Virus record (IMG/VR): IMGVR_UViG_3300034521_000390
Coordinates: 1 to 40,223 of that record
Direction: 5' to 3' (one strand)
Length of the DNA: 40,223 nt
DNA from: a virus
Under the pieces are notes generated by a model that worked only from the letters and a program-made list of their open reading frames with translations, searched no databases and was not told the origin of the DNA. Positions 5,797-34,779 of the stretch are shown here, one piece after another. A program made the translations under genes and the position numbers. Every line of letters starts with the position of its first letter. The stretch's first letter is position 1.

Positions 5797-5951
5797 ATTA
5801 CCATTTTGGTAATACTTGAAGACGCAGGAAAGCCACGAAGTGGTGGTTTCTGCCTGAGCGATGCGCTCATGTATTACCTTTTGGGTAATAATCAGATCAA
5901 AAAGTGATTGTGTCAATAGGTATGACGAGAAAAAATTACCATTTTGGTAAT
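5797..5951. promoter_or_regulatory. Three repressor operator palindromes at PL
   Basis: Three 17-bp palindromes of the form ATTACC-N5-GGTAAT lie at 5797-5813 (spacer ATTTT), 5873-5889 (TTTTG) and 5935-5951 (ATTTT). All have perfect six-base half-sites. Their positions around the PL -35 and -10 are those of left operators. Binding by the 6009-6605 repressor or the Cro-like protein is inference. Confidence 0.75.
5888..5916 (-). promoter_or_regulatory. PL, early leftward promoter
   Basis: On the minus strand a perfect -35 TTGACA (5911-5916) is followed by 17 bp and a -10 GATTAT (5888-5893, 4 of 6 matches). Operator copies flank it: one overlaps the -10 and start site (5873-5889), one lies just upstream of the -35 (5935-5951) and one lies downstream (5797-5813). 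The operon below begins at 5784. This is the best sigma70 promoter I can see in the window. Confidence 0.7.
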
Positions 5952-6008: not shown

Positions 6009-6605
6009 TTACTTGCTTTTGTTCTGCTCAAACACGAAGTTGATGAATGAGGTGATCTTGTTTTTCTCTTCCTGCGGCAGAGCTGCATACATCCGGTGGT
6101 CATAGTCGATAACACCAGGAGCGCCCACGGGAATAATCATCTCGTATGCTTCATGCCCGAACGCGCGAGCCAGGGAGGAAAGAACGCCGATAGTTGTGCT
6201 GACTTCCGCTTTCATAATCCGGTTAACTGTGGCCGGGCCAATACCAGCTGCAACAGCAACTTTCTTTTCGGATGTCATTTCCGTGTTCTTTCTCATCCAG
6301 GCGTTGAGCGTGGCTGCGGCCTGCTTCTCTACAGTCCATTCGCCATCGTCGGTGGCAGGAATAAAGATATCAGCCTGTACTGCGTCCAGTTCGTGATCGA
6401 CATCAAGCCAGAACTTTTCTTTGCGCGCCGCTTCTTCAATGATACGCGCGGCATTTGGTCCGATGTTTTTGATGCCAGTGCACCACCGATTGACCAGGTT
6501 CTGCGAACGCTTCACCCGTTCGGCAAAGCGCAGCTGGGTATCATCGAAATCCCGGAGAATGATTTCGTTAAGGTTTTTGCGTCTTATGTCATAAATACTT
6601 TTCAT
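6009..6605 (-). CDS. Phage repressor with two HTH regions and no protease domain
   Basis: A 198-aa protein transcribed leftward and divergent from the Cro-like gene, which is the usual place of the CI repressor. Two helix-turn-helix regions can be seen: one at about residues 22-60 (DDTQLRFAERVKRSQNLVNRW) and an XRE-like one at about 105-150 (EKKVAVAAGIGPATVNRIMK, then VSTTIGVLSSLARAFG). The C-terminal 40 residues are short and helical. There is no Ala-Gly cleavage site followed by Ser and Lys catalytic positions of the S24/LexA class, so SOS self-cleavage is not expected. Three operators lie between this gene and 6761. Role as immunity repressor is inferred from position, domain content and the operators. 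Confidence 0.82.
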   Translation of the reverse strand: MKSIYDIRRKNLNEIILRDFDDTQLRFAERVKRSQNLVNRWCTGIKNIGPNAARIIEEAARKEKFWLDVDHELDAVQADIFIPATDDGEWTVEKQAAATLNAWMRKNTEMTSEKKVAVAAGIGPATVNRIMKAEVSTTIGVLSSLARAFGHEAYEMIIPVGAPGVIDYDHRMYAALPQEEKNKITSFINFVFEQNKSK

Positions 6606-6658: not shown

Positions 6659-6722
6659 ATTACCATAAAGGTAAAGTTACCATAATGGTAATAATCATTG
6701 ATTTTTTCACCAGAAAGGTAAT
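6659..6722. promoter_or_regulatory. Three operators between repressor and Cro-like genes (OR-like)
   Basis: Three tandem copies of the 17-bp operator lie at 6659-6675 (ATTACC ATAAA GGTAAA), 6676-6692 (GTTACC ATAAT GGTAAT) and 6706-6722 (TTCACC AGAAA GGTAAT). The first two abut exactly, the third follows after 13 bp. They are slightly more degenerate than those at PL, as expected if they differ in affinity. They occupy the whole space where the divergent promoters must lie; TTGATT at 6698-6703 followed 17 bp later by ATAATT is a possible rightward promoter overlapped by the third site. Confidence 0.75.
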
Positions 6723-10114: not shown

Positions 10115-10602
10115 GCACTGGAATTGAACTCATGCAGCATGCGCTGGGCATCAATGAGCGGAACCGCACGCCATACCGTAATTATTTCCTCGTAGGCGAA
10201 GGGCATACGGATAACGAGAAGTGGGAAGAACTGGTATCTGATGGTTTAGCTACCTCCCGTCCCGCACCTGGTTTTGTAGGCGACGGAACGCTTTATCACG
10301 TCACAGAAAAAGGTGAAGCAACGGCAATTTCTGCACTGCCAGAGCCAAAGAAACGCACTCGATACGAAGAATATCTTGATGCTGATAGCTGCCAGACGTT
10401 CAGTGAATGGCTGTTGGGATATCGACTACCTGAAGTCGAATACAGCCGTGATGGAAAGTGCCGAATGTTTCGCTGCTCATACGACGCGGCCTATGGCTAC
10501 CCACGACGTGATGTTGAAGGCGAGTGGTGCAACACCAAAAAAGCAGCGAAGGCAAGTTACAAAGAAGCTTTGCACAAATCGAAACGGGAGTCCGCCCAAT
10601 GA
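10111..10602 (+). CDS. Hypothetical early protein (163 aa)
   Basis: A 163-aa protein starting MSTGIELMQHALGINERN; the ATG at 10111 overlaps the previous stop and is preceded by AAAGGAG, so the 20 extra upstream codons in frame are not used. The first half (YRNYFLVGEGHTDNEKWEELVSDGLA ... LYHVTEKGEA) is typical of small phage proteins with a winged-helix-like look; the second half is basic and aromatic. I recall similar phage hypotheticals but no function. Its stop overlaps the next ATG. Confidence 0.65.
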   Translation: MSTGIELMQHALGINERNRTPYRNYFLVGEGHTDNEKWEELVSDGLATSRPAPGFVGDGTLYHVTEKGEATAISALPEPKKRTRYEEYLDADSCQTFSEWLLGYRLPEVEYSRDGKCRMFRCSYDAAYGYPRRDVEGEWCNTKKAAKASYKEALHKSKRESAQ

Positions 10603-13221: not shown

Positions 13222-13262
13222 TTGACGGAATTTCATTGTAATTGTACTGTGTATATATACAG
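13222..13262 (+). promoter_or_regulatory. SOS promoter with LexA box
   Basis: TTGACG (13222-13227), a 17-bp spacer, then TACTGT. The sequence CTGTGTATATATACAG at 13247-13262 is a perfect LexA box (CTGT-N8-ACAG) with flanking TA/TA that match the extended consensus. It overlaps the -10 region, as in typical SOS promoters. The only gene downstream before a terminator is the 85-aa gene at 13282. Confidence 0.8.
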
Positions 13263-13281: not shown

Positions 13282-13539
13282 ATGGGGTCAAAAAATCCAA
13301 ATTGCACGATCATCTATCGGGGTGAGTTTATCGAAAGCGTACCAGATGGTAGCTGGCTGATAATACAACGAGCAAAAGAGTATGGCGGAGGATTCTGGTT
13401 GGGTAAGGCTTATGTTGATTGTTTCTGGCTTGAGTTTGAAAAACCAATGTCTCTCCGCGATTGTATGCACTACAGCGTTGTGCATGATGGAATGGTTAAT
13501 AACGGTCAGGCATTTGACGATGAATTTAAACTTATTTAG
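13282..13539 (+). CDS. SOS-controlled orphan protein (85 aa)
   Basis: An 85-aa protein I do not recognise (MGSKNPNCTIIYRGEFIES start). It is rich in aromatic residues (GGGFWLGKAYVDCFWLEFEK) and looks like a small alpha/beta fold, without signal or membrane segment. It stands alone, between a perfect LexA box and a terminator, so it is its own SOS-induced unit and not part of the early operon. By comparison with Gifsy-type prophages, a LexA-controlled small antirepressor is a reasonable hypothesis, but an SOS inhibitor of the host is possible too. Confidence 0.65.
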   Translation: MGSKNPNCTIIYRGEFIESVPDGSWLIIQRAKEYGGGFWLGKAYVDCFWLEFEKPMSLRDCMHYSVVHDGMVNNGQAFDDEFKLI

Positions 13540-32569: not shown

Positions 32570-33115
32570 TTACTCTTCCCAAGCCTCACCAAAAAGATCT
32601 TCTTCTAGCGGCATAGGTTGAGTCTTTGTTTGTTCAAAGAAGGCATAACTAATCTCTATTGCAGCCTCTTTAAATTCATCCTTTTCAGTTATGTTATGGG
32701 CGTCAGAATCTACAAAGAACATGACAAGTGCATCTCGGTTGTGGTTAACCGAATAGACTAAAAAGCTATCACTTGTTGGCGTATATTTAACCTTAACAGA
32801 TGCAATATTTTTCCAAGCATCCCACGAAGATTTCTTTCCAGAATGATCTTTGTCACTATCTTCAGGAACGTAATCTTTAATGTCGGAGTGAGTATGCCTT
32901 ACGTTAAGGTTAAGGATCTCTTTCGGACGCGCAAATGCAGCATCTTTCCCCATATCAGGGTGGTATCCTTTTTTCCAGAACTGCTTAAATGCTTCAGCAA
33001 TTTTTTTCAATTCAGGATCAGATGCACAAAGGGCCGAGAAATTCTGCGTGTGCAGCACTCGACCCTTGTATGTAACAACTTGATTTTTATTATTCTGCGA
33101 CGCAGACGAACTCAT
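32570..33115 (-). CDS. Candidate YafO-type toxin (181 aa)
   Basis: A 181-aa protein from the ATG at 33115 (AAGGGG ribosome site). The middle, FWKKGYHPDMGKDAAFARP followed by LNVRHTHSD, then FLVYSVNHNRDALVMFFVDSDAHN, follows the pattern of the YafO mRNA interferase family (G-x-hPD-x-x-G-x-DA ... H-x-H ... L-x-x-hhhh-D-x-H). It is longer than E. coli YafO (about 132 aa). A 59-aa gene overlaps its start upstream, the usual place for an antitoxin. If correct, it would be a prophage toxin-antitoxin pair. The resemblance is from pattern memory and could be coincidental. Confidence 0.5.
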   Translation of the reverse strand: MSSSASQNNKNQVVTYKGRVLHTQNFSALCASDPELKKIAEAFKQFWKKGYHPDMGKDAAFARPKEILNLNVRHTHSDIKDYVPEDSDKDHSGKKSSWDAWKNIASVKVKYTPTSDSFLVYSVNHNRDALVMFFVDSDAHNITEKDEFKEAAIEISYAFFEQTKTQPMPLEEDLFGEAWEE

Positions 33116-33269
33116 AGTTCCCCTTATCATTACGAGAATCATAGAAAGCGCGAGACACACGACTAGCGTGCTCTTTTGTCATAGTAACTTTTACGTACTC
33201 AACGCCTTCATTAACAGAACGTCTTGCGGCAGCTTGCGACCTGCGCACCTGCAATCTTTCGTTTCGCAT
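33090..33269 (-). CDS. 59-aa basic protein coupled to the YafO-like gene (candidate antitoxin)
   Basis: A 59-codon leftward gene, start at 33269 with a strong GAGGTGAT ribosome site; it overlaps the start of the downstream gene by 26 bp in another frame. The N-terminal 20 residues are basic (MRNERLQVRRSQAAARRSV), followed by a strand-helix-strand segment (VEYVKVTMTKEHASRVSRAFYD). A basic DNA-binding N-terminus and tight overlap with a toxin-like gene fit an antitoxin. Not recognised by family. Confidence 0.6.
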   Translation of the reverse strand: MRNERLQVRRSQAAARRSVNEGVEYVKVTMTKEHASRVSRAFYDSRNDKGNYEFVCVAE

Positions 33270-33318: not shown

Positions 33319-33335
33319 TTTACCCTTGAGGTAAT
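33319..33335. promoter_or_regulatory. Operator upstream of the 59-aa / YafO-like pair
   Basis: TTTACC-CTTGA-GGTAAT, one mismatch from consensus, 50 bp before the start at 33269. It would place the candidate toxin-antitoxin pair under control of the phage repressor. Confidence 0.65.
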
Positions 33336-33406: not shown

Positions 33407-34111
33407 TCAGAACTTACCAGCCACGCTGTTGATGTACTGCGCGTGGGTCTGGATATCGCGCAGGCATTTACTGGCACCGACGATGTAGCTCACCATCGCC
33501 GTGAACTCTGCTACAGCACCTTCAACGTCATGCCCGTCGGAATCCAACTGGCGCAGCAGGTTCATCATCAGAGAGTGTTCAGTCAGACCAAGAACACCTT
33601 CAGGTGAATGGATGTGCTCACGGTAGTTCGGCTTCAGTGGGGCGCTGTAATTCTTTTGCTCTATCTGCATTGTTTGCATAACTGCCAATGCAGTGGCATT
33701 AGCAACCTGATCAGCAACAATTTTAATGCGGTCTTCCTGTGGGATAGTATTTTTAATATAGCTTCCTGTCTTACGGATCTGCGGCAATACTTCGCCAGTT
33801 ACCCATTTGCGGAAACGGTAGGGGATAGTGCCAGGTGTAACGGCATCGCGACAGCGAAGGATCAGAGTGTAGAGGCCGGATTCGGAGATAACGTTTACTG
33901 CTTGCATCCCGCCAGGGGTGTAACTTGAAGTTACACCCTTCTCATCGTCATCGAGCATCGCAATGGCTTTACGTGAGTTTCTCAGTCCAAGAGCATCTGA
34001 CACATCTTTAGCAGAGAACCATGGGTTACCATCAATATTAAACATGCGTACAGGGGATGCTGATTCGAATTTAAATACTGCGTCTGGGGATGGTTTGCTT
34101 TGAGTTGTCAT
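33407..34111 (-). CDS. ant: BRO-type antirepressor
   Basis: A 234-aa protein. Residues about 20-115 are a BRO-N domain (NIDGNPWFSAKDVSDALGLRNSRKAIAMLDDDEKGV, then SESGLYTLILRCRDAVTPGTIPYRFRKWVTGEVLPQIRKTGSY). Residues about 160-234 (YREHIHSPEGVLGLTEHS ... IQTHAQYINSVAGKF) form a second domain that is repeated alone in the 34427-34687 gene. Antirepressors bind and inactivate the phage repressor. The leader upstream has the full layout of a c4-type antisense RNA system, so its expression is held off in the lysogen. Confidence 0.85.
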   Translation of the reverse strand: MTTQSKPSPDAVFKFESASPVRMFNIDGNPWFSAKDVSDALGLRNSRKAIAMLDDDEKGVTSSYTPGGMQAVNVISESGLYTLILRCRDAVTPGTIPYRFRKWVTGEVLPQIRKTGSYIKNTIPQEDRIKIVADQVANATALAVMQTMQIEQKNYSAPLKPNYREHIHSPEGVLGLTEHSLMMNLLRQLDSDGHDVEGAVAEFTAMVSYIVGASKCLRDIQTHAQYINSVAGKF

Positions 34112-34136: not shown

Positions 34137-34169
34137 TCACCACTACCGACGCCAATCGGTTGGTGGTGA
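34137..34169 (-). promoter_or_regulatory. ant leader hairpin, antisense target
   Basis: A strong stem (TCACCAC-x-ACCGA with TCGGT-xx-GTGGTGA) with loop TTGGCG on the minus strand, 20-odd bp upstream of the ant ATG and followed by ACTAAAAGG, the ribosome site. Both the loop and CTAAAAGG are complementary to the antisense RNA at 34171-34232. Confidence 0.7.
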
Positions 34170-34170
34170 A

Positions 34171-34232
34171 CTGTGCAGGGTTGGCGTAACCGGCTAAAAG
34201 GACCCGGCGCACCTTTCGGTGCCCCCACACAG
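34171..34232 (-). ncRNA. c4: c4-type antisense RNA controlling ant
   Basis: On the minus strand a closing stem CTGTG/CACAG bounds this RNA. Inside are a GCACC-GAAA-GGTGC hairpin and the two antisense segments CCTTTTAG (34194-34201) and ACGCCAA (34181-34187), complementary to the ant ribosome site (34120-34127) and to the loop of the ant leader hairpin. This is the c4 RNA arrangement known from phages P1 and P7, where the RNA blocks translation of the ant operon. The same pair of target sequences also occurs upstream (34296-34319). Confidence 0.8.
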
Positions 34233-34268
34233 CCCACCATAATGCGAATGTGGCCGTGCTTAACGCAT

Positions 34269-34288
34269 AAAAAAACCGCTTGCGCGGT
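34269..34288 (-). terminator. Intrinsic terminator between first target copy and c4 RNA
   Basis: On the minus strand ACCGC-GCAA-GCGGT followed by a run of T (the hairpin ends in TTTTTTT). It lies inside the leader transcript between the first copy of the target sequences and the c4 RNA. Confidence 0.7.
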
Positions 34289-34295
34289 GAATGCG

Positions 34296-34345
34296 CCTTT
34301 TAGTAATCCGGGACGCCAATCCCGGCACTGGATTTTGCCAGTGCC
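34296..34345 (-). promoter_or_regulatory. First copy of c4 target sequences with two hairpins
   Basis: The minus strand reads GGCACTGG/CCAGTGCC hairpin (34324-34345), then CCGGGA-TTGGCG-TCCCGG hairpin (34308-34325), then CTAAAAGG (34296-34303). The TTGGCG loop and CTAAAAGG repeat the ant leader target. It corresponds to the upstream a1/b1-type decoy or target described for P1 c4. Confidence 0.6.
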
Positions 34346-34379
34346 TGATCACTATGGCACAAGAATTTTGCGTTGTAAA

Positions 34380-34396
34380 TTTACCGTAAAGGTAAT
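34380..34396. promoter_or_regulatory. Operator upstream of the c4/ant transcript
   Basis: TTTACC-GTAAA-GGTAAT, one mismatch. It lies where the leftward promoter of the c4-ant leader should be, so the repressor probably controls this transcript too. Confidence 0.6.
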
Positions 34397-34426: not shown

Positions 34427-34687
34427 TTATGTGGTTTGTTTGCGTAACTGTTCTGCACAGTAATCGAGATGCGTTTGCAGATCCTTCATGGAAAGCTGCG
34501 AGCTGGTGACATAGTTCACCAGGGCAGTAAGTTCGGCCAGCGGCCCGTCGACGTTGAAGCCGTCTTTATCAAGTTCCCGCAATAAAGTCATAAGGTGCGA
34601 GTTCTCCACCAGGGATATGACGCCTCCCGGCGTGTGTACTCTTTCATAAAATCCATCTTCCAGTGGGTGGTGATACCGCTGTTGCAT
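34427..34687 (-). CDS. Small SOS-controlled protein equal to the antirepressor C-terminal domain (86 aa)
   Basis: An 86-aa protein that aligns along nearly all its length with the C-terminal domain of the 33407-34111 antirepressor: FYERVHTPGGVISLVEN against YREHIHSPEGVLGLTEH, LLRELDKDGFNVDGPLAELTALVNYV against LLRQLDSDGHDVEGAVAEFTAMVSYI, and DLQTHLDY against DIQTHAQY. The BRO-N domain is absent. I choose the ATG at 34687 because GGAG lies 8 nt before it; the ATG at 34705 has none. A perfect LexA box is just upstream. It is probably a stand-alone antirepressor or modulator induced by DNA damage. Confidence 0.75.
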   Translation of the reverse strand: MQQRYHHPLEDGFYERVHTPGGVISLVENSHLMTLLRELDKDGFNVDGPLAELTALVNYVTSSQLSMKDLQTHLDYCAEQLRKQTT

Positions 34688-34708
34688 TAACCATTCTCCA
34701 TACAATCA

Positions 34709-34724
34709 CTGTATGCATATACAG
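34709..34724 (-). promoter_or_regulatory. LexA box before the antirepressor-like gene
   Basis: CTGTATGCATATACAG, a perfect CTGT-N8-ACAG LexA site, 21 bp upstream of the 34687 start. TTGATA directly before it and GATACT overlapping it (minus strand) give possible promoter elements. No other gene reads from it within the block. Confidence 0.82.
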
Positions 34725-34762
34725 TATCAAATGTTCATCGCACTATCCAGCACACATTGCAA

Positions 34763-34779
34763 ATTACCTTTTGGGTAAT
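34763..34779. promoter_or_regulatory. Operator upstream of the LexA-controlled gene
   Basis: ATTACC-TTTTG-GGTAAT, perfect half-sites, 39 bp beyond the LexA box and 28 bp before the candidate late promoter at 34808. It could serve both directions. Confidence 0.7.

Follow-up and report, generated by a model that had tools for sequence, protein, structure and literature searches.

A LexA-boxed ortholog of SPC32H Ant as the probable SOS-operated arm of the repressor switch in an epsilon15/SPC32H-type phage

Results

The window analysed here, a 40,223-base virus record, contains a gene for an 86-aa protein that sequence comparison identifies as orthologous to ant of Salmonella phage SPC32H, and we place at roughly 0.93 the probability that this gene is the SOS-operated arm of a repressor/antirepressor switch. 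The window phage is a temperate phage of the epsilon15/SPC32H type (Uetakevirus). Beside ant lies a second, larger antirepressor gene, which carries an Ant-like domain fused to an N-terminal Bro-N domain and is preceded by an RNA leader. The features of the two loci are collected in Table 1.

Table 1. Features of the switch and their coordinates in the window.
Feature	Position	Strand	Basis
rep: repressor, cognate target of Ant	6009-6605	-	phmmer to 5D50_A, E=2.2e-129; 98% identity to SPC32H Rep
second antirepressor: Bro-N (residues 21-110) and Ant-like C-terminal domain (152-227)	33407-34111	-	PF02498; 5D50_E
C4 antisense RNA in the leader of the BRO antirepressor	34159-34244	-	Rfam RF01695, 77.4 bits, E=1.3e-13
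isrK RNA with terminator, 5' end of the same leader	34269-34344	-	Rfam RF01394, 77.9 bits, E=3.5e-15
predicted isrK promoter, TTTACA-17-CATAGT	34351-34379	-	consensus match only: 9/12, TG before the -10
Rep operator at the isrK-C4-BRO promoter, abutting the predicted isrK promoter	34381-34395	.	motif match
ant: stand-alone antirepressor, SPC32H Ant ortholog	34427-34687	-	phmmer to 5D50_E; 85% identity to SPC32H ant
LexA box CTGTATATGCATACAG	34709-34724	-	17/20 in 20-mer 34707-34726; fixed position in relatives
predicted ant promoter: -35 TGGATA (34744-34749), 17-bp spacer, extended -10 TGA-TACTGT (hexamer 34721-34726)	34721-34749	-	inferred from conserved blocks
Rep operator preceding ant, about -64 to -50 relative to the predicted transcription start	34764-34778	.	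motif; conserved position in relatives

The Ant protein of Salmonella phage SPC32H has reportedly been described together with its repressor Rep (PDB 5D50) by Kim and Ryu 2013 and Kim et al. 2016. The ATG start of the window gene fits the 86-residue chain of this structure (an upstream TTG would give 92 aa), and in a phmmer search of all PDB sequences the sole match of the protein was the anti-repressor chain 5D50_E, aligned from end to end (E=2.1e-46, residues 1-86 to 1-86). The 85% identity holds for the annotated 'ant' of both SPC32H (KC911856) and SPC32N, and the gene adjoins the tailspike gene, as it does in SPC32H, epsilon15, phiV10 and Tyrion. Matches to ant occur in 34 annotated phage records, where the product is mostly labelled 'hypothetical protein'. 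The cognate repressor is present as well: the rep product matches the repressor chains of PDB 5D50 and 5D4Z. Of 52 records, 38 have a relative of Rep, among them all eight phage-collection records examined; 12 of the other 14 are contigs of about 29 kb or less.

With at most one mismatch allowed, the window has 17 copies of the operator motif TTACC-N5-GGTAA, where 0.59 would be expected. The 12 perfect copies are clustered around rep (5798-5950 and 6660-6691), in the early region, and at 33320, 34381 and 34764. The last of these, TTACCTTTTGGGTAA, lies 39 bp beyond the LexA box and upstream of the predicted ant promoter. This arrangement is conserved: measured from the ant start, SPC32H and 80 IMG/VR loci have the operator at -87 to -91 and the LexA box at -33 to -37. 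The GenBank record of epsilon15 annotates 'repressor' sites, one of which is upstream of the ant homologue gp19, at the matching place.

The LexA box is a perfect CTGT-N8-ACAG, and the 20-mer around it matches TACTGTATATATATACAGTA at a level not reached once when the 110-bp stretch upstream of ant was shuffled 2000 times. Counted over the whole genome, the CTGT/ACAG core alone is not significant (17 hits with at most one mismatch, 14.7 expected), and the decisive evidence is therefore the conservation of the box at one place in the relatives: the score is at least 16/20 in 87 of 89 distinct ant upstream regions, and 14-15 in the other two. The preliminary description of this DNA had pointed to the 86-aa reading frame, to a perfect LexA box before it and to a phage operator 39 bp further on, and all three are borne out here. 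Alignment of the ant upstream regions also revealed a conserved block, TGCTGGATA, between the operator and the LexA box, together with the motif TTTGnTACTGT. We infer that this block holds the -35 region of the ant promoter, followed after 17 bp by the extended -10 TGATACTGT; a strict consensus promoter scan did not list this predicted promoter. As the -10 hexamer overlaps the LexA box, LexA would be expected to cover it.

Two further observations concern LexA sites. In Klebsiella-type and some other relatives (loci L135-L137, L112-L116 and L134), the left half of the box upstream of ant reads ATGT, not CTGT, and the LexA site may be weaker, or SOS control tuned, in these phages. In the window, a second perfect LexA core, CTGTGTATATATACAG, is found at 13247-13262, about 20 bp before an 85-aa open reading frame of unknown function (13282-13539, plus strand; phrog_2100), which is possibly another SOS-controlled phage gene.

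The neighbouring antirepressor has 234 aa, with matches to Bro-N (Pfam PF02498, E=2e-17) and, over its C-terminal domain, to 5D50_E (E=6.6e-17); its AlphaFold2 model is poor (mean pLDDT 50.5). The preliminary description held this full antirepressor to be antisense-controlled, a claim that homology supports, its leader carrying isrK, with a terminator-like stem at 34275-34288, and C4. The same order of isrK followed by C4 was seen in nine of nine relatives scanned. A perfect operator is present upstream of 72 of 87 distinct genes for fused antirepressors, in which the Ant-like C-terminal domain may also follow an AntA, P22_AR_N or ORF6N N-terminus. LexA control of the BRO gene too was considered and rejected: the best 20-mer in the 330 bp upstream of the 87 fused genes scores only 10-13, against 14-19 upstream of ant in the relatives.

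Several features around the fused genes were noted in passing. Downstream of the BRO antirepressor (window 32570-33269), behind a Rep operator at 33320-33334, are two small genes, phrog_6685 (59 aa) and phrog_1651, the latter with a weak similarity to the YafO toxin that falls below the Pfam cut-off; phage TL-2011b has a similar gene order here. In phiV10 (L086 3565-4244), the frame of the BRO antirepressor breaks inside the Ant-like domain, such that the annotated 'anti-immunity protein' is without most of this domain, and the stand-alone ant is intact. One relative (L029) holds a sar-like antisense RNA (the P22 ant regulator; 10453-10520) in a locus with a P22_AR_N-Ant fusion, whereas isrK/C4 goes with the AntA-Ant fusion of that locus; fusions that end in one and the same domain are thus perhaps under different RNA controls there.

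The preliminary description further proposed that the 86-aa gene repeats the C-terminal 75 residues of the BRO antirepressor, as a fragment derived from it and brought under LexA control, and that this design was, as far as its author knew, without precedent. The likeness is there: Ant residues 2-76 align to residues 152-226 of the directly adjacent BRO antirepressor with 44% identity, and 19 positions are invariant across the stand-alone and fused domains. The derivation is not upheld for a recent origin. When 22 stand-alone and 27 fused domains are placed in one tree (92 columns), built without an outgroup and not giving the order of origin of the two forms, they fall into two clades with 100/100 support, recovered in 100% of bootstrap trees; ant does not nest with the BRO C-terminal domains, and it is thus not a recent copy of its neighbour's tail. 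On this phylogeny, the stand-alone and fused domains split before the sampled phages diverged. In keeping with this, stand-alone Ant proteins are 61-97% identical between phages of different hosts, and the window protein shares only 44% with its neighbour. Nor is the design new, the gene being SPC32H Ant with its cognate Rep, and we regard a fragment of the phage's own BRO antirepressor recruited to LexA control as a very improbable origin for it.

The distribution of the two forms points the same way. Each of the 34 matching phage records has the stand-alone Ant; 18 of them have the fused form as well, and the other 16, SPC32H and epsilon15 included, are without it. Nine of 137 loci examined hold one stand-alone and two fused copies (the loci overlap and their counts are not independent). 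The fused antirepressor looks like an addition to a switch that has Ant at its core. The common domain with its invariant positions, and the tetrameric state of SPC32H Ant (PMC9638917), could also be taken to mean that the small protein acts mainly in mixed oligomers with the BRO-fused antirepressor, as its helper or inhibitor, and not on Rep alone. We consider this quite unlikely, because Ant works in SPC32H, which is without the fused form, and is kept in all the phages that likewise lack it.

Discussion

On our reading, ant is probably under the control of the host SOS response, and its product would act upstream of Rep. In the lysogen, Rep would occupy its TTACC-N5-GGTAA operators and host LexA the ant promoter, with its box over the likely -10. 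DNA damage would inactivate LexA and allow Ant to be made; Ant would then bind the C-terminal domain of Rep and break up the Rep tetramers, and the loss of Rep from the operators would turn on the lytic genes. SOS induction leads to LexA-dependent Ant in Salmonella prophages, according to a report citing the SPC32H work (PMC7380047). As a tetramer, Ant engages two Rep dimers and takes Rep tetramers apart (PMC9638917), and its contact on Rep is the C-terminal domain, CAD (PMC9986798). Given the 85% (Ant) and 98% (Rep) identity to the SPC32H proteins, the same mechanism is expected in the window phage, with LexA-dependent Ant synthesis and Rep disassembly presumably unchanged. The idea of a DNA-damage sensor that bypasses the antisense-controlled antirepressor is thus kept in part: a small LexA-controlled antirepressor is the likely damage input and is separate from the RNA-controlled one, but 'bypasses' does not fit an arrangement in which Ant is the core and the fusion the add-on.

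The BRO antirepressor would serve as a second input to the same switch. It would be expressed from a Rep-repressed promoter behind the isrK/C4 leader and has no LexA box, for which reason it probably amplifies or times derepression, either during infection or after Rep starts failing. An antirepressor role for the BRO type is supported by phage ZX5, in which overexpression of such a protein lowered the prophage titre (PMC9782041), and its Ant-like domain suggests that it has the same target on Rep as Ant. It is also conceivable, if rather unlikely, that the two antirepressors have diverged to different repressors and that the BRO fusion acts on other prophages: the two domains have diverged to 44% identity, and cross-acting antirepressors are known from the Gifsy and Fels prophages (Lemire et al., 2011; PMC3121763). 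However, the overexpressed ZX5 protein acts on its own phage, and every phage record in which the fused domain was found has the stand-alone Ant too.

Returning to a common target, we see about even odds for a broader scheme in which one Rep-binding module is used in at least two antirepressors of the same phage, answering to different inputs. The module would be exchanged among N-terminal domains, and signals of damage and of infection would thereby come together at Rep. In such a scheme, the stand-alone Ant would respond to SOS via LexA, and the Bro-N, AntA, ORF6N and P22_AR_N fusions to the level of Rep and to antisense RNAs (isrK/C4, or the sar-like RNA in one relative).

The switch itself is known, the dissociation of Rep tetramers by a LexA-triggered Ant having been published before. 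Less explored is the occurrence of one domain in two antirepressors, Ant under SOS control and a BRO fusion whose gene follows a Rep operator and an isrK/C4 leader. Our results identify as Ant, the SOS trigger, a family of often unannotated 'hypothetical proteins' found in many prophages of enterobacteria. Two questions go beyond the SPC32H work: for what reason another antirepressor, RNA-controlled and with the same kind of domain, is present in many relatives, and whether Ant and the BRO fusion share one target on Rep.

Among known systems, SPC32H is the closest, with an Ant of the same length beside the tailspike gene, a nearly identical Rep, and equal distances from ant to the LexA box and to the Rep operator; unlike the window phage, it is without the BRO-fused second antirepressor and the isrK/C4 leader. 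Escherichia phage vB_EcoP_ZX5 shares with the window the gene order ant, leader ORF and BRO antirepressor. Its BRO-type anti-repressor ORF4, with Bro-N and an Ant-like C-terminal domain, is the counterpart of the BRO neighbour and not of the 86-aa gene, the small ant of ZX5 being annotated as hypothetical. GfoA/GftA of the Gifsy prophages and Tum of phage 186 are, like Ant, small LexA-controlled antirepressors that act on non-cleaved repressors (PMC3121763). In those systems a DinI homologue either shares the operon of the antirepressor gene or is fused to it, whereas no DinI homologue was found in the ant operon or fused to ant: the alignment with Ant takes up the entire open reading frame, which is followed on its own strand by isrK, C4 and the BRO gene. 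The repressor differs as well, being an SPC32H-type Rep. Lastly, the isrK-orf45-anrP locus of Gifsy-1 (Hershko-Shalev et al., 2016; PMC4825925) resembles the BRO locus in having an isrK leader before an antirepressor gene, and the window locus differs from it in the Rep operator that adjoins its promoter.
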